From assembly GCA_012728725.1 (NCBI GenBank), contig JAAYEM010000067.1, forward strand, positions 1 through 37,372: a stretch of 37,372 bases of DNA. The letters run 5' to 3'. Every line of letters starts with the position of its first letter. The first letter of the stretch is position 1. The notes below the pieces were generated by a model, which was not told the DNA's origin, did not search any database, and saw only the letters and a program-made list of their open reading frames with translations. The translations under genes and the position numbers were made by a program. Shown in pieces: positions 6,168 through 32,519 of this stretch. The stretch comes from Tissierellia bacterium. Lineage in GTDB: Bacteria > Bacillota > Clostridia > Tissierellales > Tepidimicrobiaceae.

Positions 6168-6223
6168 TTCTTAATAGTTTCTTAACATTTCTTTATTTTA
6201 TATTAAAAAATATTTCCTATAAT
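6168..6223 (+). promoter_or_regulatory. Promoter with phased TTCTTAA direct repeats
   Basis: TTCTTAATAGT (6168-6178) and TTCTTAACATT (6179-6189) repeat head to tail with an 11-base period, and a degenerate third copy follows. A TATAAT box lies at 6218-6223 with no good -35. Direct repeats at helical spacing over the -35 region are typical of OmpR/PhoB-type activator sites, so the regulator encoded just upstream is the natural candidate. Confidence 0.45.
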
Positions 6224-6252: not shown

Positions 6253-6864
6253 ATGAAAAAATACATTGCTATATTTTTACTAGTAATAATGGCTATTAGC
6301 CTTGTAGCTTGCACCAAAAATAATAATCCATCTAATGATGAAAATATAGTGGAGGAAGATCCAAAGGATGAAATAAATGAAGGGGAAAATAAAATCGAAG
6401 ATGAAATTGAAGGGGAAACTGAAAATGAAATAGTGGACCCTGATCCTAAAACCGAGGAAAAAGAGGTAACCCTCTATTTTGTTAATAGGAAGTATGTAGA
6501 AACTGGGGATGAAAGCCTGGATAAGCTGGTAGCAGAAAAGCGTACCATCCAATATGGGGATATATCCCTGGAAGAGGCCATTGTGAAGGAATTGATGGAA
6601 GGCCCAGAATCTGAAGAGCTGGCCACACTAATCCCGGGAACAGTGAAGTTGCTAGGCGTAGAATTGGCTGATGGAACCGCCTTTGTAAACTTTGCCAGGG
6701 AAGGCCTATATGGAGGGTCTATGCAGGAAGATTTTACCATATCCCAGATAGTATATACTTTAACAGAACTAAACAATGTAGAAAGGGTACAGTTCCTAGT
6801 AGATGGAGAAAAAGTAGAAACATTAATGGGCCACTTTGAAGCAACAGAACCCTTTGAAAGATAA
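6253..6864 (+). CDS. GerMN-domain lipoprotein
   Basis: The 203-residue protein starts with a lipoprotein signal (MKKYIAIFLLVIMAISLVAC, lipobox LVAC), then a Glu/Asp-rich linker to about residue 72. A C-terminal domain matches the GerMN/sporulation fold: VTLYFVNRKYVE, a PESEELATLIPGTVKLLGVEL segment, and DGTAFVNFAREG. GerM-like proteins act at the spore or cell envelope, but GerMN domains also occur in vegetative lipoproteins, so a sporulation role is unproven. The frame is open from 6232, but AAAGGAAG at 6238-6245 places the start at the ATG at 6253, which also makes the signal peptide regular. It follows a two-component pair and probably has its own regulated promoter. Confidence 0.85.
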   Translation: MKKYIAIFLLVIMAISLVACTKNNNPSNDENIVEEDPKDEINEGENKIEDEIEGETENEIVDPDPKTEEKEVTLYFVNRKYVETGDESLDKLVAEKRTIQYGDISLEEAIVKELMEGPESEELATLIPGTVKLLGVELADGTAFVNFAREGLYGGSMQEDFTISQIVYTLTELNNVERVQFLVDGEKVETLMGHFEATEPFER

Positions 6865-6891
6865 AGGATTCGCTTATCTAGTGAATCCTTT
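6863..6891. terminator. Bidirectional terminator
   Basis: AAAGGATTC (6863-6871) pairs with GAATCCTTT (6883-6891). It overlaps the stop codon of the plus-strand lipoprotein gene and abuts the stop of the minus-strand SLH gene, serving both. Confidence 0.75.
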
Positions 6892-8237
6892 TATTTGTCC
6901 CTATTAGCCTGTTCTGGAAACTGAGTGTGTTCTTCATGCAATCCCATTAGTTTACATATAATAGTGAATGTTTCTCCCCTGCTTATGTTATTTTTAGGCT
7001 TATAGGTATTGTCTGGATAGCCTTCTATCACCTTGCTTTCATAGCCTGCCTTTACATATTCCAAGGCCCAGTTTCCAATTTGATCCTTATCCTCAAAGGG
7101 TAGTTCTAAGGATTTATCCTTTAAGCTTATATTAAAAGCCCTACTTAAAACAGCAATCATCTCTTCCCTGGTAATATAATTATTAGCTTTAAATAATCCA
7201 GAGGGATAGCCTTCAAATATATTTGCCCTAGTAGTAGCTATAACATATCCCCTAGCCCAGTTTGGAATATAATCTTTATATCCAATAGTGGCTGCATATT
7301 CTTCTTTTAAACCTAGAGCCCTGGCTATTAATACAGCAGTCTCCGCCCTGGTTACCAGGCTATCTGGCAATACTGCCTCATTAACATAGGTTACCGGATC
7401 CACTGCACCACTAAAATAATCTTCTATAGTATACTCTTCATGGGGATAGCCAGTTATAACCCCATGGTTTAATAAGCTTATTATACAATCATGGGCCCAG
7501 TGGGGCTGGTCAAGGGGCACCGGTTCTTCTGTAATTTCTACCTCTGTAGTTTCTTCATCTTTTGGCATATGGCCTCTGCCATTATCATCATAGCCACCAT
7601 TACCATGGTCTTCTCCATCATCTATAATGCACCTTTCATGTACATTTATATAGATAGGCATCTGGGCTGTTACTGACTGAAGCTCATTTCCAGCTTCTAA
7701 ATCCATATACAATATGTATTTTAAGTCTACTGTAGCTCCCTTCTTTATAGTAAACCTATCCTTTCCAGCCAGTTCATAACCTTTTATCAAGTGTCCAATA
7801 CTTGCATAATCTACCAATGTTTTATCAAAGGTAAATAGCCTGCCCTTTTCTATTTTCAGTCTTACATCCCTTAAAAAGGATTCATAAACCAGATCTAGTG
7901 GATATTCATTGTTGACTGTAAATTTCCCTTTATCCAATCCTACTCCTAAATTCTCCACTCTCATGTTATTGTATTGGTTGTGGATCCTGATTACTCCAAT
8001 GATCCCACCTATTCCCTTTTCTGCCTCTTCTACCCTGGCTGGATATAATAAGCCTCCTCCCAACAGATCTCCTTTGTAGGAGTAGCTGCCATCCTTATTA
8101 ATTGTAATTATAACATTGGCTTTCCTACTGTTAGTTGCAAAATTAGACTGAATTAAGCCAGTAGTCAAATAGATACCCATCAGTATGAGTGCCAATAAGT
8201 GGAATAGGGTCAGGAATGGCTTCTTTCCCTTTTTCAT
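6891..8237 (-). CDS. S-layer-homology (SLH) surface protein of the SipW/DUF5305 locus
   Basis: The protein of about 448 residues begins with a basic tip and membrane/signal segment (LFHLLALILMGIYLTTGLI), followed by a beta-rich region of about 200 residues with no family I recognise. A low-complexity D/G/N/E stretch follows, then three C-terminal SLH repeats: PHWAHDCIISLLNHGVITGY with TRAETAVLIARALGL, then PNWARGYVIATTRANIFEGY with TREEMIAVLSRAF, then GNWALEYVKAGYESKVIEGY with SRGETFTIICKLMGL. SLH triplets bind secondary cell-wall polymer, so the protein is probably wall-anchored. The reading frame is open to 8312, but GGGGTGAT just before the ATG at 8237 sets the start. It is the last gene of a same-strand series of secreted proteins, suggesting that it ties their product to the wall. 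Confidence 0.85.
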   Translation of the reverse strand: MKKGKKPFLTLFHLLALILMGIYLTTGLIQSNFATNSRKANVIITINKDGSYSYKGDLLGGGLLYPARVEEAEKGIGGIIGVIRIHNQYNNMRVENLGVGLDKGKFTVNNEYPLDLVYESFLRDVRLKIEKGRLFTFDKTLVDYASIGHLIKGYELAGKDRFTIKKGATVDLKYILYMDLEAGNELQSVTAQMPIYINVHERCIIDDGEDHGNGGYDDNGRGHMPKDEETTEVEITEEPVPLDQPHWAHDCIISLLNHGVITGYPHEEYTIEDYFSGAVDPVTYVNEAVLPDSLVTRAETAVLIARALGLKEEYAATIGYKDYIPNWARGYVIATTRANIFEGYPSGLFKANNYITREEMIAVLSRAFNISLKDKSLELPFEDKDQIGNWALEYVKAGYESKVIEGYPDNTYKPKNNISRGETFTIICKLMGLHEEHTQFPEQANRDK

Positions 8238-8371
8238 CCTATCACCCCATTGAAAAAAATCTACTTCTCCAATTGTATTGTATGAACTACAGACCCTATT
8301 TATTTGGCACATAAGTATACTTTTAATTACTACTTTTTAACCATTAATACATAAGACCTTGGACAAAGTAT

Positions 8372-9436
8372 CTATATTGACTTTTCAGCAAACTCCATAC
8401 TACCTAAATCCAGCACATATATTTCATCCTGTCCAATTACATAAAATCTATTTATGTCCCTATAATCATAACTGTACTTATACAAAATTGGCCTTCCTAT
8501 TTCATCTGCAATTCTCACTAAATCATCCATAGATTTTACTGAATATAAATCATCATGGGAAGCTGATATTTCATTATTTAAAGCCACAAACCTATCCCCA
8601 TGCTTTTTAAATAGCCTTCTCAATTCCTTTTTATAAGGATCTTCACTGGTGCCTTCGGTGAAAAATACTAGGAATACAATTCCTAATAGGGCTACCCCAA
8701 TAATGGCTCCTAGAATTATAAGCTTATTCTTATTTACAGGTAGCTGAACTTCCCTTGTCTCTTCAATAGCACCTGGCTGGTCTATTGTTCTATTTCCCCT
8801 TATTTGAATCATAGATGAGTTTAAAGGAATCATCAAACTTGGACTTATGGTTTCTTCAATTCTACCTACCCTTGTTTCCCCTTCCACTTTTATATTCATA
8901 ATAATGGTTAAGCTTGTCTGACAGCTTATTTTAGATGCCTCAAGTATTTTAGAGGCAAACTCATTATATTCCCCAATATTTATATTTACATCTTCTTTTA
9001 TGGACTTGCTTTCACCAGCAATGGTAAAACTTTTATTGGGTCTAAGTATAAAGTCCTTTTCCCAGATACTCATAATATTTTCATCCCTATCAGTGGTATA
9101 GCCCTGAACCTTTGCTATTATATGGTAAGTTCCCTTTAAATCTTTAGCCTTGTCTCCACTGAATTCATAATTAAAGCGAGCCTCTATATGGTCTATAAAT
9201 TCTGTAATATAGATCCTATCCTCAGATAATGATTTGGTATCATATAATTCATTGGGTTTAAAATATACTGTAAAGTCTGCAGTGGCTTTGTTATTATAAC
9301 TAAATAGAGGAACCTTCTCCTCCTCATAACCTGGATCTTTTATAGCCCTATACAGTAAAAAAGAAACACCAGCAACTCCAATTATCAAAAAAGATATTAA
9401 TCCCAGCCTTAATTTCTTATGTATACTAAATTTCAT
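8372..9436 (-). CDS. DUF5305-family membrane protein
   Basis: The 354-residue protein has a membrane helix near the N-terminus (LISFLIIGVAGVSFLLYRAI), an extracytoplasmic beta-rich region of about 200 residues and a second helix (LIILGAIIGVALLGIVFLVFF) near residue 250. A cytoplasmic tail of about 90 residues contains YKKELRRLFKKHGDRFVAL. This two-helix layout and the outer domain match DUF5305, a family of unknown function found in archaea and bacteria; from memory it occurs beside signal peptidases and SipW-dependent proteins. It could be an assembly or anchoring factor, which is inference. GGGGAG eight bases before the ATG at 9436 decides the start over an upstream GTG (9445). Confidence 0.75.
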   Translation of the reverse strand: MKFSIHKKLRLGLISFLIIGVAGVSFLLYRAIKDPGYEEEKVPLFSYNNKATADFTVYFKPNELYDTKSLSEDRIYITEFIDHIEARFNYEFSGDKAKDLKGTYHIIAKVQGYTTDRDENIMSIWEKDFILRPNKSFTIAGESKSIKEDVNINIGEYNEFASKILEASKISCQTSLTIIMNIKVEGETRVGRIEETISPSLMIPLNSSMIQIRGNRTIDQPGAIEETREVQLPVNKNKLIILGAIIGVALLGIVFLVFFTEGTSEDPYKKELRRLFKKHGDRFVALNNEISASHDDLYSVKSMDDLVRIADEIGRPILYKYSYDYRDINRFYVIGQDEIYVLDLGSMEFAEKSI

Positions 9437-9620
9437 TCCCAACACTCCCCTAGGCCTTTTACACTACTTTTTCTATAAGGTAATATGCATATCCTCCATA
9501 TTTTTTATGACAAATTTCTATGTAATCATATTTAGTTCAACTGTTCTCTTTATATATTATGGACAAGCTATCTTGATTTTTATACGTATTGTGTGTAAAA
9601 AGAATAAAACAGGCATATAA

Positions 9621-9648
9621 AAAGAGTAGGAGTAAAATCCCACTCTTT
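9621..9648 (-). terminator. Terminator after the 256-residue SipW-type protein gene
   Basis: AAAGAGT (9621-9627) pairs with ACTCTTT (9642-9648), with an inner GGA/TCC helix and one mismatch. A U-rich stretch follows on the minus strand. Confidence 0.7.
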
Positions 9649-10417
9649 ATTTAGTACCTTCTATCTCTTGAATATCTCCGTCTCCACCGTATCCATTTTC
9701 TCCATCATATGGATTTTGTGTTGGATCCTTTGCCCATTGTTCCCAATCAAATGTTATCTTGAACTTGCAATATTGGTTTTGATATTCATTTCCTGCATCT
9801 GGATGAAGCTTAAATAGTATGCAATTTTCCTCTTCTACCTCTTCAGACTCAGCTCCTAGTGTAAACCATCCACCAGGCTCAATTACTAAATTTACCTTAT
9901 TAGTACTTTCTACTAATTTATCAAGAGCTCTTTGTACTGTCCACCAATCTTGATTTACATGAGCCCACTTATCTTTTACGCCATCACCATTTACGTCAGC
10001 CTTCCAAGTGGTTTGGGCTCGTAGTAAATTAAATAAATCTTCGTTTCCACTTAAAAGTTCAACTCTAGCACCCTTAAGTTTAGCAGGAATTGTTCCTTTA
10101 TTTTCAAATTTCATATCAACTTGAACTACTCCACCAGGATATAGATCTTTAAATTCTACAATAGCTGAATTACCATCAGGCAAAACTTTAGTATTTGCTT
10201 TAACTCCATGTGTCCAGTCATACTTGTGCCAATCATGGGCTTCATTTTTCCTTTGATCATCACCAGTACGTGTACCTACACCTGTTATTTCCACATCAAA
10301 TTTCCCAGTTCTTACTGTTGTTGTCAAGAATAGCTCTTCATTCCATATAGCATAGCCTGCACCTATCAACATAATGGCTACTATCAATACCAGCATCAAA
10401 AATTTGGCCCTTTTCAC
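9647..10417 (-). CDS. SipW-dependent secreted protein, candidate major surface-fibre subunit
   Basis: The 256-residue protein opens with a SipW-type signal peptide: a hydrophobic run ending GAGYAIWNEELF at about residues 19-30, followed by TGKFDVEITG, the usual start of TasA/camelysin-like mature chains. The core has KFENKGTIPAKL, the strand and turn seen in many such proteins. DVNGDGVKD at residues 141-149 has the D-x-N-x-D-G spacing of a calcium loop. Two cysteines (C199, C217) may pair. The tail is acidic and Gly-rich. It starts at GTG after AAGGAGAGGATAAGT. Terminators both upstream (10604-10619) and downstream (9621-9648) isolate it as a single-gene transcript, which fits a highly made structural protein. 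TasA-like fibre formation is inferred; the direct observation is the signal type and the clustering with the peptidase. Confidence 0.8.
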   Translation of the reverse strand: MKRAKFLMLVLIVAIMLIGAGYAIWNEELFLTTTVRTGKFDVEITGVGTRTGDDQRKNEAHDWHKYDWTHGVKANTKVLPDGNSAIVEFKDLYPGGVVQVDMKFENKGTIPAKLKGARVELLSGNEDLFNLLRAQTTWKADVNGDGVKDKWAHVNQDWWTVQRALDKLVESTNKVNLVIEPGGWFTLGAESEEVEEENCILFKLHPDAGNEYQNQYCKFKITFDWEQWAKDPTQNPYDGENGYGGDGDIQEIEGTK

Positions 10418-10603
10418 ACTTATCCTCTCCTTTTTACTGATTTTTAACTTTTCCCTACTCCTATAAAAATTATAGGTTGTTCTTCCCCTTTTTACGCCCC
10501 TCCAAAGTATACTTTTCTTTTATAATTTAGTTGTAAAATAATGGGCCTTAAGGCCTACATATATGCTACTTTAGTACCATATAAATTTATGCAAAACAAA
10601 AAA

Positions 10604-10619
10604 CAGGGTAATAACCCTG
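10604..10619 (-). terminator. Terminator after the signal peptidase gene
   Basis: CAGGGT and ACCCTG form a 6-bp stem with a 4-base loop six bases beyond the peptidase stop. TTTTTTGTTTT follows on the minus strand. Confidence 0.75.
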
Positions 10620-10624
10620 CTTAA

Positions 10625-11839
10625 CTAAAATACTATTTCATCTAAAGGAATATTACCTTTACTCTTTATAAGGAGAGTTGGCCAGCCTAATTTGGGTATT
10701 GTCTTTATTACCTGACCCCTTATATTTTCCGGCTTTACTGGGTCTGGATCCTGTCCTGAATTATTGTCTCCTTTAGTTATGAAGCTTATCCCTTTCTCTT
10801 CTTCCCTTTTTATATCTATTATCCTATGGGATATAAGTATCCCGTCCCTTTGAAACTGTATTATGTCTCCAACTTTAAGCTTATTTATACCTTCTATATC
10901 TACTATCCTCTCCACTAGGATAATATCCCCTGGTTTTATCTCTGGCTCCATACTTCCAGTGGCGATAACAGATGGGTATATGGGAAAGACTCCTACTGCA
11001 AACCATACAATCAATATGGATATAATGCTTGTGATTAACCAACTAAGGGGGCTTTCTTCCAGATCCTTTTTCCTCAATTGTTTAGAGGCGGTATAGTATA
11101 TATTCTGCATGGACATCATGAAAAATATGGGACAAAGAATGCCTATCAATGCCATGGTAATCCACTTTATATCTGGTAGAACTGGAGACAGCCAATGGAA
11201 AGCCTCTATAACTCCCATATATGTAATAGAAGTTAGTGGCCCCCCTAGATATGCCAAATATCCAGCAAATAAATTTTGAGTAAAATCCGGCGCCAAATAC
11301 TGGCCTATGAATTGGACTAACTGGGAAAGGCTTATTAAACTAGTATAATTATTAAAGGAGATGCCGGTAAATGTCATAAATATAGCTATTAGTATAAATA
11401 CCCAGTATCTTTCCTCTTTATTGAAACCCTTTATTAGGTAGCTCCTAATAAATTCTCTGCATACCAAGGCTGGGCCTATAGATATAATATTTCTAATAAT
11501 CCCCATTATGGAATGATCATATGGACTCTTGCCTAGACCGTCTATAAGTCCAGCTAATATGGAAATAATGATATAAATAATTGCAAAATTAAAGGCCCAA
11601 AAATACAAAAGTTTTCTCAACCTTAAATATCCTTTAGCCCTAATACATGGAAATCTCCATACCAGGGCCAGGAAACCCATCCATAGAATTGGCCTTATTA
11701 TATAATTGAATGCAAAACTACCTATAATATTTACAATATTTGAATTTTCCAGTATGTACATAAACAAAATTAATATTATTAATACAAGACATATTTTATT
11801 GTAATTTGCTGTAGGCAAAAACTTATCCCTGGTAATCAT
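10625..11839 (-). CDS. Signal peptidase I of SipW/Sec11 type fused to a polytopic membrane domain
   Basis: The C-terminal third (from about residue 270) is an S26B signal peptidase: a membrane helix, then ATGSMEPEIKPGD with nucleophile Ser296, GILISHRIID with His338 and ITKGDNN with Asp358. A histidine where ordinary bacterial enzymes have lysine marks the ER/archaeal/SipW class. SipW cleaves TasA- and YqxM-like precursors in Bacillus, and three likely substrates are encoded on either side. Bacillus SipW is about 190 residues; here an extra N-terminal region of about 270 residues with seven or so hydrophobic segments is fused in front. Its function is unknown, and one loop (VCREFIRSYLI) only loosely recalls CPBP-type membrane proteases. 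The gene begins at ATG 11839 and follows the 158-residue secreted protein gene by 64 bases. Confidence 0.85.
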   Translation of the reverse strand: MITRDKFLPTANYNKICLVLIILILFMYILENSNIVNIIGSFAFNYIIRPILWMGFLALVWRFPCIRAKGYLRLRKLLYFWAFNFAIIYIIISILAGLIDGLGKSPYDHSIMGIIRNIISIGPALVCREFIRSYLIKGFNKEERYWVFILIAIFMTFTGISFNNYTSLISLSQLVQFIGQYLAPDFTQNLFAGYLAYLGGPLTSITYMGVIEAFHWLSPVLPDIKWITMALIGILCPIFFMMSMQNIYYTASKQLRKKDLEESPLSWLITSIISILIVWFAVGVFPIYPSVIATGSMEPEIKPGDIILVERIVDIEGINKLKVGDIIQFQRDGILISHRIIDIKREEEKGISFITKGDNNSGQDPDPVKPENIRGQVIKTIPKLGWPTLLIKSKGNIPLDEIVF

Positions 11840-11903
11840 ACTTGTCCCTCATTTAATAATGTTTATCAAATCACTTGAATATGCTAATTATTTAAGTCAA
11901 TGT

Positions 11904-12380
11904 CTAATTCATGTTTTCAGTAGGGTTTTCCTCATGGTCTAAATTAACTTCTTTGCCTTCCACTTCTCCACTAATTTTGGATTCATCATTATTCCCATTG
12001 TTGTTGTCAATTTCTTCCTCCCCTGGTTCATCTCCATCTATTACTTGACCACCATTTTTTTCTACACTATCCCATTGGATTAAATTATCTACCGGTATTT
12101 CCAAATCATATTGTCCACCTTTTTCAACTTCTATTCCAATAAGTTCAGTAATTACTTCCTCTTCTGGCTCCTGGACATCAAATTCATTCAGTTTTGGCCT
12201 TTCCATTTCCCCTAGCATATTTTCTAACTCTTCTCTCTTAGCCAATACATGTTCTGGGTCTGGTAGTACATCTATATCTACCTCAATGGTTAACATTTCA
12301 CTCCATAGCCCATATCCGCCAGATATAAACAATATTGCAAATATAAGGCTTAAAAGGATTACAATTATTACCTTCCTCAT
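11904..12380 (-). CDS. Small acidic protein with SipW-type signal peptide
   Basis: The 158-residue protein has a membrane/signal helix ending SGGYGLWSEMLTIEV at about residues 20-34. The G-Y-G-x-W-S-E-x-L core matches the other two putative SipW substrates in the locus. The rest is strongly acidic, with runs of Glu, Asp and Asn and no cysteine. The only segments that look folded are LIGIEVEKGGQYDLEIPVDN and neighbours. No family is recognised. CGGAGGTAATTAT before the ATG is an excellent ribosome site. Its place between another SipW-type gene and the peptidase gene suggests a minor or accessory component, in the manner of TapA, but no TapA homology is visible. Confidence 0.65.
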   Translation of the reverse strand: MRKVIIVILLSLIFAILFISGGYGLWSEMLTIEVDIDVLPDPEHVLAKREELENMLGEMERPKLNEFDVQEPEEEVITELIGIEVEKGGQYDLEIPVDNLIQWDSVEKNGGQVIDGDEPGEEEIDNNNGNNDESKISGEVEGKEVNLDHEENPTENMN

Positions 12381-12415
12381 ATAATTACCTCCGTATCATC
12401 ATTGAATGGATTTTA

Positions 12416-12925
12416 CTATAGTCCCTGTTTAAAGTAGTAATATTCAGTAAAGGTATAGGTTTCAGTAGGAAATAATTCTTCTATTATTTGATCCATATCA
12501 AAGCCTTCTTCATACTGTTCAGGAACTATGGACTTTCCCTGTAATAATGGTTTCCTATATTCCTCTAGATCTATAATATATTTAAACTCCCTGGTCTTTC
12601 CTGGATATATAATGGTTCCATCTTCCAATACTGCCGGCACTGTTCCTTCATTTATAATAGAAAAAGTTATGGTTTCCTTCTTTCCTTCATAGCATTCCCC
12701 ACTTACTTTTAAAGTCTTGCCATCAAAAGATGGTACTACAATTAAATTATCACTTTGGCCACCAGTAAAGCTAAGATTGAAATTTCCTGTGCTAATGGAT
12801 ACATCCATATTGAGGCCCTCATTCCAATACCCGTACCCAATGCCTATAGAGCTTACTGCTATTATGGCAACTATGAATATTGTAGATTTGATGTGTAATA
12901 TCTTTTTCCTTTTCCCCCTGCTCAA
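12416..12925 (-). CDS. SipW-dependent secreted protein, TasA/camelysin-like
   Basis: The protein of 169 residues has a basic N-terminus (RGKRKK), a hydrophobic helix and the SipW-type site GIGYGYWNEGLNMDVSISTG, followed by NFNLSFTGGQ. A middle portion FSIINEGTVPAVLEDGT matches the beta-strand/turn seen in the 256-residue paralogue (FENKGTIPAKLKGA). The C-terminus is Tyr/Phe-rich (TYTFTEYYYFKQG). A GTG at 12934 overlaps the ribosome site itself; the TTG at 12925, eight bases after AAAGGAGG, is the true start. It begins 43 bases after the response regulator gene and is probably transcribed with it, so a two-component system may drive it directly. Confidence 0.75.
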   Translation of the reverse strand: MSRGKRKKILHIKSTIFIVAIIAVSSIGIGYGYWNEGLNMDVSISTGNFNLSFTGGQSDNLIVVPSFDGKTLKVSGECYEGKKETITFSIINEGTVPAVLEDGTIIYPGKTREFKYIIDLEEYRKPLLQGKSIVPEQYEEGFDMDQIIEELFPTETYTFTEYYYFKQGL

Positions 12926-12968
12926 AGAGGTCACCTCCTTTGATTTCAGCTATAAACTAGGCTGCACC

Positions 12969-13586
12969 TTACATATTGATAAATTCATTGGCCAAGAGTG
13001 CTACCTGAGTCCTATGTTCCAAGCCTAGTTTAGACAAAATATTGCTAACATGTTTCTTTACAGTATGTTCTGATATAAAGAGTTTTTCTGCTATTTCACA
13101 GTTGCTTAGCCCTTTTCCTAATTCCATAAATACATCCTGCTCCCTGGGGGTCAATTCATCCAGATATGTATTTTTATGATTATTTGTAATCTCATATTTT
13201 ACAATTTCCGGATCTATAAACTGTTTTCCCCTTAAAACTAAATGTACAGCATATAGTATATCTTCAGCAAAGGCTTCCTTAAGTATGTATCCTTCTACTC
13301 CCACCTCCTTACAGCGTATAAAATCTTCCTTTTTCAAAGATGAAGTTAGTATTATAAATTTGGTTTTAACTTCTCTTTTTTTGGAGCTGATCACTATATC
13401 TAACCCATATTCCTTACCAAGATAAAGATCTATTATAGCCAAGGTTGGTTCTTCCCTTTCTATTACCATCTCAGCTTCTTCCCTACTGGAAGCTTCTAAT
13501 ATAATGTCGATATCCTCCTCAAAGGATAGGATAGCTGATAAGCCCCTTCTTACCAATGGATGGTCATCCACTATAAGTATTTTCAT
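12969..13586 (-). CDS. NarL/LuxR-family response regulator
   Basis: The 205-residue regulator has a receiver domain with acidic DDHP (residues 7-10), phospho-acceptor D53 in AIIDLYLG, and TSS near residue 81. A C-terminal LuxR-type helix-turn-helix follows (about 140-200: LTPREQDVFMELGKGLSNCEIAEKLF is split by the usual turn before SEHTVKKHVSNILSKL). It overlaps the kinase gene upstream by four bases (ATGA), indicating translational coupling. Its likely targets are the SipW-type secretion genes that follow, possibly including its own operon. The binding sequence is not recognisable. Confidence 0.92.
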   Translation of the reverse strand: MKILIVDDHPLVRRGLSAILSFEEDIDIILEASSREEAEMVIEREEPTLAIIDLYLGKEYGLDIVISSKKREVKTKFIILTSSLKKEDFIRCKEVGVEGYILKEAFAEDILYAVHLVLRGKQFIDPEIVKYEITNNHKNTYLDELTPREQDVFMELGKGLSNCEIAEKLFISEHTVKKHVSNILSKLGLEHRTQVALLANEFINM

Positions 13587-15301
13587 ACAAGAGCCTCCCC
13601 CTCTTTAACTGGTACCTTATTAGGTATAACAACCTGTATTTTAGTGCCCCTACCTGGATAGCTGTCTATTTTAATCTCTCCTCCTAAGGATTGGGTCAAT
13701 TGATATAGGTTTTTAAGTCCCAAGCCCCCAGTTTTATCTTCAGTAACTTTGCTGACATCAAATCCAACCCCATCATCTATTATTCTTAACATATTGACTC
13801 TAGCCTCAATAGTTAAAGATACTTCTATATTTTGAGCTTTTCCATGACGCACTGCATTTGCAATTCCTTCACATATTATCCTATAAAAAGCCTTCTTCTG
13901 TTCGCAATTTAACAGCTCATCATCCCCTTCTATATTAAATGGAATGGTTACCCCATTAAATCTCTTCATATCCTCTATATAGTTTTTAATATCCATTACA
14001 AAGCTATCTGAGCCGGCCTTTTTCCAACTAAGGCCATATATCTTTTCCCTTAATTCCTTCATTACAGTCTTGGTTGTATTCCTAATTATATTAAGTTTAT
14101 CCTCTATTTCCTCTTTGGTGTATTTATCTAAATTTCTAATCAAGGAAAAGACGCCACAGGACATGCTGAAAAGCCTTTGAAGGACACTATCGTGTATCTC
14201 ATTGGCTATTCTATTCTGTTCCTCTGAAATCAATAACCTTTCATTTATTTCCTCTAGAGAGAGCCTTTCAAAGGTTGTAGACAATAATTCTGACAGGAAT
14301 TGAAGTTGATAAATGGTATTCCGGTATATGATCCCCTCTTTAATATGTATTAATTTGCAGCCCAATATGCCATAATCTTTATAATTGGATTTTACCGGCA
14401 TCATTATGAATCTGGTATTGGATATGGATATTTCTACAGGTGATTTTTGTTCTAGTATATTTTTTAAATCTTTTTGAATGTATTCTTCTATAGACTTTAC
14501 AAACCCATTATCCAATTGGGAAAACATCTTATTTTCATCTTCCGATACATCATAATAGAATAATAGGTGGCTTTTGGTTATTTTTCTAGTATATTTAAAT
14601 AAAAGCTTTATTAGGCCTTCCTTATTCCCTTTACTAGTTAATATATTGATGGATTGGTACAGGGTCTTTATATGATCATTAGATTCTATAATCATATTAT
14701 TAGCCATTTCCAATTGTTTGTTTGCTATTTCTAGTTTTTTACTCTTTTCCTTGGTCTTATCTATATAAACAGCCCAAAGTTGAATTGCAACTACTATCAT
14801 GATAAAGCTTAGTATATAGTTGGATTCCTCCCTTATAAGTCCTAGTAGGTATTGGCCATTATAAGTGGTAAAATATGCTAATATACTAGAGGTTATTAAA
14901 TAAGCAGATAGATTAATCCAGCAATATATTTTTTTTAGAAATACAGAGCTTATTAATATGGTGTTGAGGCTATACCAGACAAATGGACTATTAATGCCTC
15001 CATTAAGTCCTCCTGAGGGTATCAATAACATACAGTTTCCTATGGTTTCTATGGTAAGAAGGATTTTAATGCTTTTATTGGATCTTTCCTTGGCTAGATA
15101 AAGATAGGACAATATTATTGCTGATATGGTGAGGCAGCCTATTATAAAGATCCTTTTACCAAGGTAATGGTCAGGATCATTAATAAAATAGAATAGGGAT
15201 GTAATTAGTAAGGATATGTACCTATATGCAAATAGAATTTTTGATTCTTCTAATCTACCCCTAAAAAAGGAATCTTTTCTTTTTGTAATTTTTGAAATCA
15301 A
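13583..15301 (-). CDS. NarL-family sensor histidine kinase with multi-helix N-terminal domain
   Basis: The 572-residue kinase has about five or six membrane helices in residues 20-180, a coiled-coil linker (KKLEIANKQLEMANN) and a GAF-like region at about 215-350. The HisKA_3 dimerisation helix EEQNRIANEIHDSVLQRLF places the phospho-acceptor at H370, and an HATPase_c domain follows with AVRHGKAQN, DDGVGFDVSK and GGLGLKNL. This is the DesK/LiaS/NarX class. The start is TTG, seven bases after AAGGG. It is the first gene downstream of the structured leader and terminator at 15402-15535 and of four further genes on the same strand. The stimulus is unknown; multi-helix sensor ends of this kind often sense membrane state or small hydrophobic ligands. 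Confidence 0.9.
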   Translation of the reverse strand: MISKITKRKDSFFRGRLEESKILFAYRYISLLITSLFYFINDPDHYLGKRIFIIGCLTISAIILSYLYLAKERSNKSIKILLTIETIGNCMLLIPSGGLNGGINSPFVWYSLNTILISSVFLKKIYCWINLSAYLITSSILAYFTTYNGQYLLGLIREESNYILSFIMIVVAIQLWAVYIDKTKEKSKKLEIANKQLEMANNMIIESNDHIKTLYQSINILTSKGNKEGLIKLLFKYTRKITKSHLLFYYDVSEDENKMFSQLDNGFVKSIEEYIQKDLKNILEQKSPVEISISNTRFIMMPVKSNYKDYGILGCKLIHIKEGIIYRNTIYQLQFLSELLSTTFERLSLEEINERLLISEEQNRIANEIHDSVLQRLFSMSCGVFSLIRNLDKYTKEEIEDKLNIIRNTTKTVMKELREKIYGLSWKKAGSDSFVMDIKNYIEDMKRFNGVTIPFNIEGDDELLNCEQKKAFYRIICEGIANAVRHGKAQNIEVSLTIEARVNMLRIIDDGVGFDVSKVTEDKTGGLGLKNLYQLTQSLGGEIKIDSYPGRGTKIQVVIPNKVPVKEGEALV

Positions 15302-15401
15302 ATTTCAACCCTTCTTTTTATTGTATATTTATAAACAATCTAAGCCCTTAATTTATTATATTAAGGCCCTTATTAATATTTCCACTTACTTCAAAAATAA
15401 A

Positions 15402-15433
15402 ACCCAACCTATAAACAAAGTTATAGATTGGGT
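15402..15433 (-). terminator. Strong leader terminator upstream of the kinase operon
   Basis: The minus-strand RNA forms a 13-bp stem (15433-15421 with 15414-15402) with one U-G wobble that would be a C-A mismatch on the other strand, so the hairpin belongs to the minus strand. UUUUAUUUUUG follows. It lies about 100 bases before the kinase start, where a terminator has no gene to end except a leader RNA. Confidence 0.8.
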
Positions 15434-15535
15434 CGGTTGCACCACTGACTCCCCATGTGTAAGGTACCCATATACAACACATGGTTCCTTGCCTCCCAAA
15501 TTAATATATTAATTCTTGCATTCATTATAACAAGG
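15402..15535 (-). ncRNA. Candidate structured leader RNA (riboswitch or attenuator) for the SipW locus
   Basis: Between the ttcA-like gene and the kinase gene, the minus strand carries an extended -10 (TGTTATAAT, about 15536-15528). It is followed by a 16-base palindrome (AATTAATATATTAATT), then GGGAGGCAAGG. An 8-bp stem comes next (CCATGTGT with ACACATGG, about 15485-15455) whose loop holds GGGTACC, then GGGAGTCAGTGGTGCAACCGACC, which is more than chance structure, and then the terminator. GC content is clearly above the surroundings. I could not match it to GEMM, ydaO, T-box, SAM, TPP, cobalamin, glycine or preQ1 consensus features. Start and extent are approximate. Confidence 0.45.
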
Positions 15536-20939: not shown

Positions 20940-22043
20940 TTAATGACAGATGGCTTTTTCTGTTTCCTTATCGAAGAAATGCATCTTGTTAATATCAAAG
21001 GCAATTTCAATTCGACTATCAGGGGTGACAATAGTGTCAGAAGGGGTTCTACATATAAGCTTTTCTCCATAGCAATCGAGGTAAACGTATATCTCACTTC
21101 CCATTAGTTCTGTAATCTCTACAAGGGCCTTTGTTTTATAGTCGCTCAATTCACCAGCCTCTGGAATCTTTATATTTTCAGGACGAATTCCTGCAACTAC
21201 CACCTTTCCAGCATAGGGTTTTAATTTATGAGCCTTTTCACCTGTTAAAGTGAATTGATAATTTCCACTGAAGTCAACAATGGTTTCTCCCCCTTCAACT
21301 TTAACTATTGCATCAAGGAAGTTCATCTGGGGAGCACCTATAAAGCCTGCAACAAATAAATTAGCAGGATAGTTATAAAGGTTTTGAGGGGTGTCAACCT
21401 GCTGCATAAATCCATCATTCATAACTACAATCCTATCTCCCATGGTCATGGCTTCTATTTGATCATGGGTTACATACACAAAGGTAGTCTCAAGCCTTTT
21501 ATGCAATTTAATAAGTTCCGATCTCATGGCAGTACGTAATTTGGCATCAAGGTTAGAAAGGGGTTCATCTAGCAGGAATACTTGGGGATTCCTAACCATG
21601 GCCCGTCCCAAAGCAACCCTTTGCCTTTGTCCTCCTGATAGGGCTTTTGGCTTTCTATCAAGAAGATGCTCAATATCTAATATTTTGGCAACCTCAGTAA
21701 CCCTTCTTTTTATTTCATCCTTGGGTACTTTTCTTAATTGTAGGCCAAAGGCCATATTCTTATAAACGGTCATGTGGGGGTATAAGGCGTAGTTTTGGAA
21801 AACCATTGCAATATCTCTATCCTTAGGATGAACATCGTTTACAAGTCGGTCTCCAATATAAAGCTCTCCCTGGGTTATCTCTTCTAGCCCAGCAATCATC
21901 CTGAGGGTTGTAGATTTACCACAGCCTGAAGGCCCCACAAGGATTACAAATTCTTTATCCTTTATTTCCAAATTTAAATCTGTAACAGCTTTTACATCAC
22001 CTGGATAAACTTTACTAACATTTTTAAATGTAATACTAGCCAT
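20940..22043 (-). CDS. MsmX/UgpC-type ATPase of a CUT1 sugar ABC importer
   Basis: The 367-residue ATPase has Walker [10 protein letters not shown] (residues 37-45), Q loop [13 protein letters not shown], signature [15 protein letters not shown], Walker [14 protein letters not shown] and H loop [15 protein letters not shown]-terminal MalK-type regulatory domain has the GIRPENIKI strand. It energises uptake by the two permeases encoded just upstream. Many Bacillota share one MsmX between several importers, so this one may also serve others. It is the last gene of the four-gene operon, 33 bases after the second permease. Confidence 0.93.
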
Positions 22044-22076
22044 TGCAACCTCCCCTATACTATATCTTTAAATTTA

Positions 22077-22910
22077 TTATCCTTTCAAACCAGACATGAC
22101 AATGCCTCTAACTATATACTTTTGACAGAGTATATATATTACCAGTACCGGAATTAAAGCCAGCATAGATCCCGCCATTATAAGATCATACCTGGTAGAA
22201 AATGAATTCCTAAAGCTGGCCAGGCCTAATTGTACTGTAAACTTGGTATCCGTATTTAGATAAATTAGTGGATTCATAAAGTCGTTATATGAACCTTGGA
22301 ATAGAAAAACTCCCAATGTGGCAATTATAGGTTTGGATAGGGGTAGCATAATAGTTGCCCATATCCTAAGTTTACCACAGCCATCAATAACAGCTGCCTC
22401 CTCCAGATCTACTGGAATAGTCATAAAAAACTGTCTCAATAAGAATATAGAAAAGGCAGTCCCAAAGGCTGAAGGCAATATCAGCGGCGCATATGTATCA
22501 ACCAATTTGAGATTTGAAAAAAGCAAGAATCTTGGAATCATTGTAACCGCCGATGGTATCATCATAGATGAAATAAAGAGCATAAATAGAAATTTCCTAA
22601 AGGGGAATTCAATCCTTGCAAAAGCATAAGCTGCCAAGGAAGAAAATATTATATTAAATACAACTACTGGTATTGTCACCTTCATAGAATTTAAAAACAT
22701 CTCAAAGAATGTTATCCTACCAGCATTGAGAACTTGCCTATAGTTTTCCCATTTCCAAACAGAAGGAAAGAACTTAGGAGGATAAGCAAATAATTCCCTC
22801 TGGCTTTTGAATGAAGATACCAACATCCAAAAGAAAGGAAGAAGGACAATAGCTGTTGCAAAAGCCAGTATTATATAGGATATTATTATGGATCTTCTAG
22901 ACTGTTTCAT
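22077..22910 (-). CDS. CUT1 ABC permease, MalG/AraQ type
   Basis: The 277-residue permease has six membrane segments and the family EAA loop DLEEAAVIDGCGKLRIWATIMLPLSKP when read across its turn. An N-terminal IILAFATAIVLLPFFWMLVSSF helix and the late NDFMNPLIYL segment are typical of MalG-like partners. It pairs with the permease encoded 17 bases upstream. Placement beside the arabinose genes makes AraQ-like oligosaccharide import the best reading. AAGGAGGAGTGCAATT before the ATG sets the start. Confidence 0.9.
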   Translation of the reverse strand: MKQSRRSIIISYIILAFATAIVLLPFFWMLVSSFKSQRELFAYPPKFFPSVWKWENYRQVLNAGRITFFEMFLNSMKVTIPVVVFNIIFSSLAAYAFARIEFPFRKFLFMLFISSMMIPSAVTMIPRFLLFSNLKLVDTYAPLILPSAFGTAFSIFLLRQFFMTIPVDLEEAAVIDGCGKLRIWATIMLPLSKPIIATLGVFLFQGSYNDFMNPLIYLNTDTKFTVQLGLASFRNSFSTRYDLIMAGSMLALIPVLVIYILCQKYIVRGIVMSGLKG

Positions 22911-22927
22911 AATTGCACTCCTCCTTA

Positions 22928-23851
22928 TTAAATATCATACTGAACATTCTTGTTCAAGATCCTATCCTGAATTAGGGTAACTGTTAAAATAATTATAAAC
23001 ATAACCACTGCCATAGCACAGGCATATCCCATTTTACCATACTCAAAGGCATTGGCAAATAGATAGTAGGATACAGTGTGGGTAGAGTATCCTGGTCCAC
23101 CCTTAGTCATTATAAATACCTCTGTGAAAACTTGGAATGCATCTATTACACTGGTTAGAATGACAAAATACATGGATGGCATTATAAGAGGCAGTTTTAT
23201 ATTTATAAATTTCCTCCAGGGTGTAATTCCATCGATAGCAGCGGCTTCATACAAAGTTTCAGGAATTCCCTGTAAAGCAGAAAGCAAGATAAGCATATTG
23301 TATCCAGAATGCTTCCATATGGACATTAGTGCAATAGAAATAAGGGAAAACCTCTTGTCGGATAGCCAGCCAACGGGAGGAATTTTGAATAGGGATAAAA
23401 CATAGTTTAAAACACCAAATTCAGTATTATAAATCCAAACAAATAGCAGGGCACACACAACCATTGGCGTTATAACTGGAAGGTAAAACATTACTCTAAA
23501 AAAACCAATTCCCCTTAGGGGCATGTCCATAGCCAAAGCCACTATCAAAGAAACGGTTATGGAAGCAGGTACATATATTATAACCCATTTAGTAGTGTTC
23601 TTTAAGGATTCCAAAAATACAGGATCCTTAAATAGAGTTTTATAATTTTCTAAACCTATGAATTTGGGGGCACTTAAAATTCCCCAGTCAAAACCACTTA
23701 TTATAAAAGAAGCAACAACGGGATAAATTACAAAAACACATAGGCTTATAAGGGCTGGTGCAATAAATAGATATCCTGTTAATGCCTCTTTCCTCTTAAG
23801 GCTCATGCCTTTTGTCTTCTTCTGTGAAATGTCGGTAGTGGCGCTTTTCAT
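22928..23851 (-). CDS. CUT1 ABC permease, MalF/AraP type
   Basis: The 307-residue permease has six membrane segments: a YLFIAPALISLCVFVIYPV first helix and an EAA loop ETLYEAAAIDGITPWRKF, followed by IKLPLIMPS. FTEVFIMTKGGPGYSTHT is the signature of the MalF/AraP side. A GAGGAGG site precedes the ATG. It is separated from the binding-protein gene by a strong hairpin (23901-23939) that probably lowers its expression relative to the lipoprotein. Confidence 0.9.
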   Translation of the reverse strand: MKSATTDISQKKTKGMSLKRKEALTGYLFIAPALISLCVFVIYPVVASFIISGFDWGILSAPKFIGLENYKTLFKDPVFLESLKNTTKWVIIYVPASITVSLIVALAMDMPLRGIGFFRVMFYLPVITPMVVCALLFVWIYNTEFGVLNYVLSLFKIPPVGWLSDKRFSLISIALMSIWKHSGYNMLILLSALQGIPETLYEAAAIDGITPWRKFINIKLPLIMPSMYFVILTSVIDAFQVFTEVFIMTKGGPGYSTHTVSYYLFANAFEYGKMGYACAMAVVMFIIILTVTLIQDRILNKNVQYDI

Positions 23852-23900
23852 TCTAAACCTCCTCTATACTAGTTTAGACCATTAAATAAGCCATTATCAT

Positions 23901-23947
23901 GGCTATGGCAAAGATAACTGAAGTATCTTTGCCATAGCCTTCAGTTA
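23901..23947 (-). promoter_or_regulatory. Intercistronic mRNA hairpin between binding protein and permease genes
   Basis: GGCTATGGCAAAGATA (23901-23916) pairs perfectly with 23924-23939 (16 bp, 7-base loop) and no U-run follows on the minus strand. This suggests an mRNA-stabilising or partial-termination element. An alternative 9-bp helix joins 23915-23923 with 23939-23947, and the two cannot coexist. Confidence 0.6.
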
Positions 23948-23963
23948 TATTATTAATTTAAAA

Positions 23964-25316
23964 CTAATCGTTAAATAGGGTTTCGTTAGCCTTCTTATCT
24001 ATATTGCGGGCTGCTTCTTCGATAGTTTGAGAACCTTCAAATACAAGGGAAAGCTCTGCAGATATGATAGCATCGTACTCAGCCCATTTACCTGTAGCTA
24101 AAGCTTCAATTTGTTCCTTATCTCCAATGTATTTTGAAGTAGCTATAAAGGCTTCTGCTGGTTCTCCAAGTATATTCTTATTTGTTATTAAGTTTTCATA
24201 TAGAGGTACTGATAAACCACTTGCTAGAGTATAGCTTAATCCTGTTTCACTCATTAAGAATGATAGGAAGTTAGCTGCAATCTCTTTGTTTTCAGTATGG
24301 GCACTTATAGCCACATTAGCTGTAATGAAAGGACATACTCTTGTAGTTCCTTTAGGGAATTCTACAGCTGTCCATTCAAAATCACACTCTGCCAAGAAGC
24401 TTGGAACAACCCAACGGCCAGATGGGTACATGGCAACTTGTCCAATAATAAATAGACGGTCTTCACTTTCTCCAGTTGTTCCTGGAGCAGGAGCATAACC
24501 CTTTTCTACTAGGGTAGCTGGTACTGATAATCCCTTAATAGCATTTGGATCTGATATGTTGGATTTTCCATCCTTGAACCATTCTGCATCATAATTACCC
24601 ATAAAGTTTATCCAATCAGCACGATAGTTGTTTACAGCAGTACCATATTGAACTGTTCTGCCATTTTCCACTATAGTAAGCTTTTCTGCCAGCTCAATAT
24701 AGTCATCCATGGTCCAATCAGATGTAGGAATTGGTATTCCCGCTTCTTCGAATAGGTCTACGTTTATGTACATTACATAGGATGTGAAATCTTTAGGAAT
24801 AGCGTATTGTATACCATCTGCTTGTCCATATTCTAAAGCTCCATCAAACATACCTTCTGCAATAGCAGGATACTTTTCAAGAACATCAGTTAAATCAGCA
24901 ACAAGCCCTGCATCTGAAAATTCTTTTACACGAGCTTCATTTAGCCAGAATACATCTGGTAGTGTTCCTGATGCTGCTAGAGTTTGTAGCTTTGTATAAT
25001 AGTCTCCAGGAGTGTACATCTGTTCAACTTCAACACCTGGTACCAGTTCTTCATAGGCCTCAATTAAATCTGCATACATTTGGCGCTCATAATCATCGCC
25101 CCAGTGCATGAAGGTAATTTTCCCCTCAAGACCCTTTGATAGTTCATATCCATCCCATTTTAAATCAGCTGGTTTTTCACTAGCTTCCTCAGTTGATGTT
25201 TCCTCTTTAGTACTTTCACTAGGCTCTTGTGTGTCCTCAGATTTTGAACCGCCACAGCCGGATATTAGGGACAGCATTATAATAAGAACTAGAAAAATAC
25301 TGATAGCTCTTTTCAT
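23964..25316 (-). CDS. Sugar-binding lipoprotein of a CUT1 ABC importer (AraN-like)
   Basis: The 450-residue protein has a lipoprotein signal with lipobox ISGCG, then a Ser/Thr/Glu-rich linker. A family 1 solute-binding fold follows from about residue 55 (LEGKITFMHWGDDYERQMY, TLPDVFWLN, MYINVDLFEEAGIPIP, RLFIIGQVAMYPSGRW). It captures sugar outside the membrane for the two permeases. Divergence from the GH127-ara genes suggests arabinose-containing oligosaccharides. The frame is open to 25412, but AGGAGGG before the ATG at 25316 gives a regular signal peptide. Two imperfect palindromes lie in the 120 bases upstream, consistent with repressor control. Confidence 0.9.
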   Translation of the reverse strand: MKRAISIFLVLIIMLSLISGCGGSKSEDTQEPSESTKEETSTEEASEKPADLKWDGYELSKGLEGKITFMHWGDDYERQMYADLIEAYEELVPGVEVEQMYTPGDYYTKLQTLAASGTLPDVFWLNEARVKEFSDAGLVADLTDVLEKYPAIAEGMFDGALEYGQADGIQYAIPKDFTSYVMYINVDLFEEAGIPIPTSDWTMDDYIELAEKLTIVENGRTVQYGTAVNNYRADWINFMGNYDAEWFKDGKSNISDPNAIKGLSVPATLVEKGYAPAPGTTGESEDRLFIIGQVAMYPSGRWVVPSFLAECDFEWTAVEFPKGTTRVCPFITANVAISAHTENKEIAANFLSFLMSETGLSYTLASGLSVPLYENLITNKNILGEPAEAFIATSKYIGDKEQIEALATGKWAEYDAIISAELSLVFEGSQTIEEAARNIDKKANETLFND

Positions 25317-25350
25317 AAAAATTTCCCTCCTATTATTGTTTTTACAAAGG

Positions 25351-25385
25351 AATATTGAATACTTGACCCTTGAAGATACAATATT
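25351..25385. promoter_or_regulatory. Imperfect palindrome, candidate operator 1 of the transporter operon
   Basis: AATATTGAATACTTG and the reverse complement of GAAGATACAATATT match at 12 of 14 positions around a short centre. It lies 35-70 bases before the lipoprotein start. The half-site resembles that of the next palindrome (TTG-W-AT-A-CTT). Confidence 0.4.
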
Positions 25386-25403
25386 GAAACCAGCACTAGG
25401 AAT

Positions 25404-25433
25404 TTGTATCATTCAAGTTGTTCAAGTATACAA
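25404..25433. promoter_or_regulatory. TTGTAT/ATACAA palindrome, candidate operator 2 of the transporter operon
   Basis: TTGTATCATTCAAG on the plus strand faces TTGTATACTTGAAC on the minus strand. TTGTAY halves recall AraR-type operators; the assignment is inference. Confidence 0.4.
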
Positions 25434-25815
25434 TAATCGCTTTTTATGTTATGGCAAAGATATTTAAATATCTCTGCCTTAACTACAAGGATAAATTTTA
25501 ACTGACAAATCCATATTATACAGCTTTACAGGTGGATGGCTATTTATAATTCCTCACATAATTGGACTATCAAATACCCTGGTTTATTATATAATAATAT
25601 CAGACAACCAAAGTTCAACTTGTATAAACTTATCAGAAAATTGTCACCTTAAATTAAAATCATTATAATAAAAAAACCTTAATATGTCAATAATTTCAGA
25701 CAAAAAAACAAGTATATAAATCAAAAGATGTATTTAACAATAATTAACCTAAAATACAAGTTTTTTTCATATTTTCGCTAGTATTATTGGATTTATTGTT
25801 ATATAATTTATTATT

Positions 25816-25865
25816 ATGGGATGATATGTAGGATAGTTGTATGGGATGATATGTAGGATAGTTGT
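25816..25865. repeat. Perfect tandem duplication, 25 bases x 2
   Basis: The unit running from 25816 to 25840 (ATGGGATGATATGTAGGATAGTTGT) is repeated exactly at 25841-25865. Each copy ends in a TTGTA half-site, and the second copy lies seven bases before the -35 of the DUF624 promoter. Confidence 0.9.
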
Positions 25866-25872
25866 ACACAGA

Positions 25873-25923
25873 TTGACAAATTCTATTTTTCCCTTTAAAG
25901 TTAAAATATGTACTTTTGTATAC
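25873..25923 (+). promoter_or_regulatory. Promoter and candidate operator of the DUF624 gene
   Basis: TTGACA (25873-25878) and TAAAGT (25896-25901) are 17 bases apart. ATGTACTTTTGTATAC at about 25907-25922 covers the expected transcription start and resembles the pair of half-sites over the GH127 promoter. Confidence 0.45.
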
Positions 25924-25949
25924 CATAATTTTTTAATAGAGGGGATTTT

Positions 25950-26636
25950 ATGTTTTTTAAGAATTACTACAAACCAGGACCAGGGGTAGATAAAAACGCC
26001 CCTCCCAAAAAAGGTCTAGCCTTATATATAGATCTTTTAACCATTGATTTTTGGGGTTTTGTTGGCTTAAATATGCTGTATGTAATTTTTTGTATTCCCA
26101 TAATAACCATAGGAGGAGCAACTTTAGCATATACTGAATTATGCTGTAAACTAATAAGGAAGGAGCCTGTACTCACCCTTACCGATTTTTTAATTAGTTT
26201 CAAAGAAAATTTTAAGAAGGGGATTTTTCTTAGCTTAATACTTCTATTGGTTTTATTTGACCTATTCATTATATACACCAATGCAATTGCTTATTTGGAT
26301 AAGGGATTAGGTTCCCAAGAAATAGCTTTTTGGGCAATAATTAGTATATTTAGCATCATATTAACCTCCTTACTGGCCTATCTAATGCCAATGATGTCTA
26401 ATTTGGATTTAAATTTTCTATTTCAACTTAAAAATGCTTTTATATTGATGATAGTAGGCGGTTTTAGGACCATTGTAGTTTCAGCCTTCAATATAGCCCT
26501 ATTCATTTTGACTGTTATCTATTTCCCCCTTTCAGGGATAGTATTCTTTATACTAGGATTCTATATTTTAATTTTTACAAATTGTTTCTTTACCTGGCCT
26601 TTAATTGAAAAATATGTGGTTTTACAAGAGGAATAG
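25950..26636 (+). CDS. DUF624 (YesL-like) membrane protein
   Basis: The 228-residue protein has five or six hydrophobic segments and the DUF624 opening: FFKNYYKPGPGVDKNAPPKKG, then LTIDFWGFVGLNMLYVIFCIPIITIGG. Family members are common in carbohydrate-utilisation operons of Bacillota, next to CUT1 importers, but their function is unknown; an accessory role to the transporter is plausible. GAGGGG precedes the ATG. It lies divergent from the binding-protein operon and 122 bases before araR, so it may be cotranscribed with the repressor gene. Confidence 0.85.
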   Translation: MFFKNYYKPGPGVDKNAPPKKGLALYIDLLTIDFWGFVGLNMLYVIFCIPIITIGGATLAYTELCCKLIRKEPVLTLTDFLISFKENFKKGIFLSLILLLVLFDLFIIYTNAIAYLDKGLGSQEIAFWAIISIFSIILTSLLAYLMPMMSNLDLNFLFQLKNAFILMIVGGFRTIVVSAFNIALFILTVIYFPLSGIVFFILGFYILIFTNCFFTWPLIEKYVVLQEE

Positions 26637-26758
26637 CATGGAAGCAGAAACCATATGGAAAGCTTATATTACCTATGGATAATTTACTTGTAAGCATAGT
26701 ATTTAATTAGATTAAAATATTTTTATTGGTAATGATTAAATACATTGAGGTGAAATAC

Positions 26759-27835: not shown

Positions 27836-27842
27836 AAAGTGA

Positions 27843-27870
27843 GCATTTACTGGAATGGTAAATGCTTTTT
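27843..27870 (+). terminator. Terminator of araR
   Basis: GCATTTAC (27843-27850) pairs with GTAAATGC (27858-27865), followed by seven T. Confidence 0.8.
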
Positions 27871-27898
27871 TTAGTACAATTTTTTAAATTTGTACTAA
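27871..27898. promoter_or_regulatory. Candidate AraR operator upstream of the GH127-ara promoter
   Basis: TTAGTACAA (27871-27879) and TTGTACTAA (27890-27898) form a perfect 9-base inverted repeat with a 10-base centre. It lies 28 bases before the -35. The GTAC-centred halves match the general form of AraR sites. Confidence 0.5.
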
Positions 27899-27910
27899 AA
27901 GCTTAAAAAA

Positions 27911-27956
27911 TGTACACCTTTTTGTATTGACTATTATATGGAATTTAATTTATAAT
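27911..27956 (+). promoter_or_regulatory. Promoter of the GH127-araADB operon with overlapping half-sites
   Basis: TTGACT (27927-27932) and TATAAT (27951-27956) are 18 bases apart. TGTACACCTTTTTGTAT (27911-27927) abuts the -35, so a bound repressor would block polymerase. A leader of about 80 bases follows to the GTG start. Confidence 0.6.
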
Positions 27957-28040
27957 TTTAATTACAATAAGTACATATTTAGTATTAATGTGTTCAATAA
28001 AACTTTTTATCAAACAAGTTAATTAAAAGGAGGTATTAAT

Positions 28041-30308: not shown

Positions 30309-30326
30309 TTGATATGGAGGTATAAT

Positions 30327-31805: not shown

Positions 31806-31814
31806 GTGATTCTT

Positions 31815-32507: not shown

Positions 32508-32519
32508 AGGAGGTAACCT

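Follow-up and report, generated by a model that had tools for sequence, protein, structure and literature searches.

We identified a locus in contig JAAYEM010000067.1 of a Tissierellia bacterium (positions 1 to 37,372, the whole stretch analysed and hereafter the window) that is predicted from its sequence to build a surface fibre of the TasA/AbpX type. According to our reading, the locus receives two inputs, assembles its fibre by donor-strand complementation, attaches it through a protein with SLH repeats and employs a DUF5305 protein as assembly partner; as a whole, this reading appears reasonably probable. The genes lie on the minus strand in the order kinase, NarL-type regulator, S1, S2, Ser-His signal peptidase, S3, DUF5305 and SLH (Table 1).

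Table 1. Positions of genes and regulatory elements of the predicted fibre locus in the window, in the direction of transcription.
Feature	Position	Strand	Match or remark
TATAAT, -10 element 5' of the riboswitch	15524..15529	-	Sequence, by eye; no good -35
c-di-GMP-II riboswitch aptamer	15422..15505	-	Rfam RF01786, 78.1 bits, E 3.3e-16
Intrinsic terminator	15401..15434	-	14-bp stem, T-rich tail
Sensor histidine kinase, N-terminal membrane part	13583..15301	-	HisKA_3 PF07730, E 4.4e-10; HATPase_c PF02518, E 5.5e-13
NarL-family response regulator	12969..13586	-	PF00072 and PF00196
S1, SipW-type precursor, predicted minor subunit	12416..12934	-	Small TasA-superfamily domain
S2, SipW-type precursor	11904..12380	-	Donor-like N-terminal strand, then acidic tail
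SipW-type S26B signal peptidase	10625..11839	-	
Terminator between peptidase gene and S3	10601..10622	-	
Dyad TGGTACT-AA-AGTAGCA, predicted regulator site	10564..10579	-	7-2-7 spacing
Conserved promoter box AAAGTATACTTTGGAGGG	10498..10515	-	Start 41 nt before the -10
TATAAT, -10 of the S3 promoter	10469..10474	-	
S3, predicted major TasA-like fibre subunit precursor	9647..10417	-	
Terminator 3' of S3	9621..9648	-	11-bp stem, T-rich tail, -14.3 kcal/mol
DUF5305 protein	8372..9445	-	PF17231, E 1.5e-43, 149.2 bits (cut-off 29)
SLH protein	6891..8237	-	Ordinary-looking signal peptide, predicted TasA-like N-domain (8135-7617), SLH repeats

Every gene named in an earlier note on this DNA was found at the place and on the strand given there, and the neighbourhood of DUF5305, SipW and precursor genes recurs in many Bacillota genomes and is kept in related ones. 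The complete order from kinase to SLH gene was found in genomes of several Bacillota families and orders, and the arrangement is thus not due to chance. Some genomes have variants of the locus, with extra copies of S3 or no SLH gene. DUF5305 was present in 12 of 100 related genomes searched, and the core was also detected in one Thermoplasmata archaeon record and three Deltaproteobacteria records. The locus of record L036 is typical of Bacillota, and the title of this record, Lutibacter sp. B2, a name from the Bacteroidota, is probably erroneous. Cultured strains with the locus include Sedimentibacter saalensis, Geosporobacter subterraneus, Natronincola peptidivorans and Sporosalibacterium faouarense, which makes the predictions below testable.

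All three precursors have donor-like mature ends, W-(N/S)-E-x-L. In TasA fibres, every subunit lends its N-terminal strand to complete its successor, and a strand from TapA initiates the chain (PMC9674648, PMC10151520). Profile comparisons indicated kinship of S3 and S1 with archaeal AbpX (E 2.2e-14 for S3; E 2.9e-8 for S1 against 9sj2) and of S3 also with TasA (E 2.4e-4 against 8aur and 3.6e-4 against 5of1); S1 and S3 matched each other at 99%. The Pfam family Camelysin (PF12389) was matched by 10 of 15 S3 family members, with the window S3 itself below the cut-off, and the window S3 scored 15.7 bits against the C. perfringens BsaA family (TIGR04090), also below the cut-off of 60. S2 had no Pfam or NCBIfam match and no recognisable domain, and its acidic tail is 31% D+E. 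Judging from peptidase and signal-peptide homology, SipW would free the mature ends of S1, S2 and S3 to serve as donor strands. S1 and S3 would both give and receive strands. With a donor strand and no acceptor domain, S2 could only start or cap the fibre, and from this one short segment we hypothesize a TapA-like donor role for it.

The peptidase was the only protein in the genome to match TIGR02228 above the cut-off (83.3 bits versus 51.85), and its score against the Bacillus SipW family (71.8) was below the cut-off of 190. Ser296, His338, Asp358 and Asp364 are invariant in all 47 homologues compared, and a domain of approximately 260 residues, which matches no known family, precedes the catalytic part. 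The DUF5305 protein had no sequence relative among solved structures, and no paper naming this family was found in the literature searched. Its AF2 model (pLDDT 90.9, pTM 0.63) suggests a transmembrane helix, a beta-sandwich ectodomain, a second transmembrane helix and a small C-terminal domain. The best structural matches of the beta-sandwich, RbmA (Z 9.0) and transglutaminase domains (Z ~8), were too unspecific to assign a function from the fold. In 46 of 54 loci, no more than 3 kb separate DUF5305 from a long SipW; among the eight unlinked cases, three are on short contigs or contig ends (L047, L048 and L050) and three have SipW present but further off (L031, L034 and L044). In view of this near-constant adjacency, DUF5305 most likely assists assembly at the membrane as a partner of the peptidase.

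S3 evolved out of step with these two proteins. Sequence identities of the peptidase and DUF5305 run together over 946 locus pairs (r 0.91), whereas those of S3 do not follow them (r 0.29). The window S3 shares 54-65% identity with the S3 proteins of five distant lineages but only 24-26% with those of its nearest relatives. On the tree of the peptidase and DUF5305, the six carriers of window-type S3, a class picked from the identity table, require six changes, and a single clade was rejected (p 2e-49). Either S3 has been swapped within an otherwise stable set of genes, or lineages retained different ancient copies. Three Clostridiaceae loci (L071, S3 at 6201; L045, at 3660; L048, at the start) have S3 on the strand opposite the adjoining DUF5305 gene. 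An invertible segment around S3 was considered for these loci, and a search for inverted repeats on either side turned up none that was convincing.

Both the anchoring role of the SLH protein and the assembly role of DUF5305, as the earlier note had proposed them, are what we also infer, and a TasA-like domain in the SLH protein would make anchoring more specific. The protein more likely starts at the ATG at 8237 than at 8312. Its SLH repeats are clear (PF00395, E 2.4e-27, 95.1 bits versus 20.8), and it is these repeats, and nothing else in the locus, that speak for the S-layer involvement suggested previously. The N-domain had no significant sequence match to TasA and no sequence relative among solved structures, and its sequence comparison with S3 (63%) was suggestive only. 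However, its AF2 model (pLDDT 88.5) was closest to the TasA monomer 5of2 (Z 9.5 over 143 residues, 3.2 A), followed by TasA 5of1 (Z 9.3) and the fibre form 8aur (Z 7.7), compared to no more than 6.3 for unrelated folds. Foldseek ranked the archaeal bundling pilin 7ueg first and TasA 8aur second, with modest TM-scores (0.4-0.5). No Trp occurred in the first 20 mature residues of any of 23 SLH protein homologues. The N-domain is thus predicted to have a TasA fold without the donor-strand end. Such an acceptor-only protein could take up the final donor strand and tether the fibre to the wall, and the SLH protein may accordingly be both cap and anchor. Another explanation is that the SLH protein decorates the fibre or competes with it, its TasA-like domain being self-complemented and taking no donor strand. 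That the soluble, self-complemented monomer, and not the fibre form, is the closest structural match fits this idea, as does the observation that some loci (L033 and L049) have no SLH partner within view. Against it, in most complete loci the SLH gene is tightly linked to the other genes, and the missing donor end is what an acceptor-only unit should have; we regard this alternative as rather doubtful and favor the anchor.

The first regulatory input, and the most informative element of the locus, is a c-di-GMP-II riboswitch, which did not appear in the earlier note. The window aptamer passes the RF01786 gathering score of 53.5 bits and is the only c-di-GMP-II riboswitch in the genome, which encodes 8 GGDEF matches over the cut-off. 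The riboswitch and its terminator precede a transcription unit containing the kinase, regulator, S1, S2 and SipW genes, and the 5' arm of the terminator shares 13 nt with the 3' end of the aptamer. Across the window and related loci, 15 aptamers scored above the gathering score, and a terminator overlaps the aptamer 3' end by 11-17 nt in all 15. They precede the kinase in the window and in L015, L016, L019, L020, L021, L022, L032, L035, L036, L037, L040 and L042, and the SLH gene in L056; the fifteenth is the second L019 copy described below. A local model, built from 8 of these same 15 aptamers, recovered all 15 with at least 62 bits each and gave no further strong matches. C. difficile has four class II c-di-GMP switches, each of them an ON switch (PMC6366702). 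This precedent, together with the terminator-overlap layout, suggests that the window riboswitch is an ON switch: binding of c-di-GMP would block the terminator, such that expression of the kinase-to-SipW unit is restricted to high c-di-GMP, the sessile state. No riboswitch was detectable in several related loci that begin with the kinase (e.g., L028, L031, L034, L043 and L049), and the c-di-GMP input therefore appears to be common, not universal.

Additional riboswitches were observed in or near these loci. In Sporosalibacterium (L019), the second c-di-GMP-II riboswitch (12405-12488) precedes a small extra SipW-type peptidase (12559-13158), which is followed by an additional SLH protein at 16649. 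c-di-GMP-I class riboswitches were found at L061:4781, at L035:1098 and at 15.8-17.5 kb in L031 and L034, the latter two being GGC variants in tandem. A Desulfosporosinus locus (L052), in which DUF5305 occurs without SipW within view, has a weak aptamer-like match (7460-7545, 27.8 bits) before a regulator gene. Molybdenum/tungsten cofactor riboswitches lie downstream of the SLH gene in L014, L020 and L021.

The second input would act on S3. The claim that the major subunit has its own transcript held up: S3 lies between terminators at 10622-10601 and ~9648-9621 and has its own conserved promoter. This promoter and the dyad upstream of it are new relative to the earlier note. The DUF5305 and SLH genes may likewise be driven from promoters of their own. 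The consensus of the S3-upstream dyads is the inverted repeat TACTACT-AA-AGTAGTA, from which the window dyad differs at outer positions. It conforms to the 7-2-7 frame of NarL sites, with inverted heptamers, 2-bp spacing and the pattern TAC...T-AA-A...GTA; an engineered high-affinity NarL site reads TACCCCT-AA-AGGGGTA (PMC4549865). Dyads matching at least 13/16 positions were present in 26 of 71 S3 upstream regions versus 0.56% of shuffled sequences, an enrichment that the shuffles alone overstate because some of the scored S3 promoters had themselves served to define the consensus. Independent support comes from its position, its absence before other genes and the NarL-type spacing; the upstream regions of the other seven locus genes held five dyads of at least 13/16 in total. 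In all 16 loci whose promoter box scored at least 11/14, which are the loci counted here, this box starts exactly 41 nt 5' of TATAAT or a near match. The distance from dyad to box, read off the table, is approximately 27, 48 or 71 nt, in steps of about two helical turns. The degenerate dyad TRSTACTWWAGTASYA, a pattern written to fit the window site, had one exact match in the 2.07 Mb window genome, at S3.

The dyad also co-occurs with the regulator. With loci judged intact hand-sorted into groups and the threshold lowered from 13 to 12 after seeing the data, dyads of at least 12/16 were found in 25 of 28 loci with the regulator family and in 0 of 11 without it (Fisher p 2e-7); the unsorted set of all loci, tested at 13/16, gave a p of only 0.034. 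A regulator-type dyad at this position makes S3, and not the minor subunits, the likely direct target of the regulator. The earlier note had placed the minor subunits and the peptidase under direct two-component control; these genes sit behind the riboswitch and the dyad precedes S3, so its wiring was probably the reverse of the actual one. The co-encoded kinase would phosphorylate the NarL-type regulator, which would then bind the S3 dyad and turn on S3. The two inputs would form an AND gate: c-di-GMP would permit production of the sensor and the export machinery, and the signal sensed by the kinase would release S3. All claims made here are computational: gene content, conservation, riboswitch and dyad are results of sequence analysis, from which switching, regulator binding, processing, polymerisation and anchoring are extrapolated.

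Alternatively, the same fibre locus might be controlled by c-di-GMP alone, with the regulator acting on its own gene or on other genes and an unrelated factor binding the S3 dyad. The link between dyad and regulator consists of co-occurrence and resemblance, many regulators share similar NarL-type sites, and a few SLH genes also have upstream dyads. We nevertheless consider this arrangement unlikely, given the distribution of the dyad among intact loci with and without the regulator family, its NarL frame and the single exact match of the pattern in the genome, and retain direct control of S3 by the co-encoded pair. Two other roles for the dyad were examined and rejected. As a global regulon signal, its 11-base core was no commoner than the control in the genome and the longer pattern gave one site. 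As evidence for action of the regulator on the riboswitch promoter, no dyad enrichment was seen before the kinase within a 300-base window that covers that promoter partly.

Several known systems resemble this locus in part. The B. subtilis tapA-sipW-tasA operon shares an S26B SipW, a TasA-superfamily subunit, short donor-like mature ends and a minor precursor able to start the fibre (PMC9674648, PMC10151520). In contrast, no TapA-like domain was found in the window locus and the window peptidase carries a long extra N-terminal domain; a c-di-GMP riboswitch, DUF5305, an SLH partner and a co-encoded NarL pair are not described for the B. subtilis locus in the accessible parts of the sources. 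The C. perfringens sipW-bsaABCRSD operon has SipW, a polymer-forming secreted subunit and an in-operon two-component system, BsaRS, which, according to the accessible part of the report, is needed for the operon to be expressed and binds its promoter (PMC7395162). This is a precedent for the dedicated two-component system, which the earlier note had listed among the differences from the Bacillus locus. The gene order given in that part of the report differs from that of the window locus, and no riboswitch, DUF5305 or SLH protein is mentioned there. The archaeal bundling pili AbpA/AbpX, which are donor-strand fibres, are the closest solved sequence relatives of S3 and S1; they are archaeal, and the accessible part of their description does not deal with regulation or SLH wall anchoring. 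An ordinary cluster of exported proteins with a specialised peptidase and no fibre, such as camelysin-type surface proteins or S-layer accessory proteins, would agree with the Pfam name of the S3 family (Camelysin metallo-endopeptidase) and with the filament being known here only as a prediction from genes, but is very unlikely in view of the significant profile matches to the filament-forming AbpX and TasA and the donor-like ends of all three precursors.

For the fibre locus proposed here, the nearest regulatory parallel is C. difficile Cdi-2-4 (pilA1), in which a c-di-GMP-II aptamer with a terminator turns on surface filaments at high c-di-GMP; that switch controls type IV pili, whereas the window switch precedes a SipW/TasA-type fibre locus (PMC6366702). 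The literature searched contained no description of a SipW/TasA-type fibre under the control of a c-di-GMP riboswitch. If correct, our reading would connect the TasA-like matrix fibres of Clostridia with c-di-GMP signalling and provide a testable answer to how a TasA-like fibre is attached to the cell wall. More tentatively, and with less than even confidence, we suggest that these loci represent a widespread and distinct system, which would combine an AND gate of c-di-GMP and a NarL pair, fibre parts that only donate, both donate and accept, or only accept strands, an anchor in which a TasA-like domain is fused to SLH repeats, DUF5305 as a core assembly partner of long SipW in bacteria and archaea, and S3 exchanged between lineages on a stable chassis.

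The surroundings of the locus in the window were also inspected. A lipoprotein gene with a spore-germination domain (PF10646, 6232-6891) and the SLH gene are convergent and have a terminator-like hairpin (6863-6891) in common. On the other side, positions 20940-34118 contain an arabinose-type utilisation cluster, whose genes, named from translations only, include an ABC sugar transporter, an AraR-like regulator, L-arabinose isomerase, ribulokinase and an epimerase-like protein.
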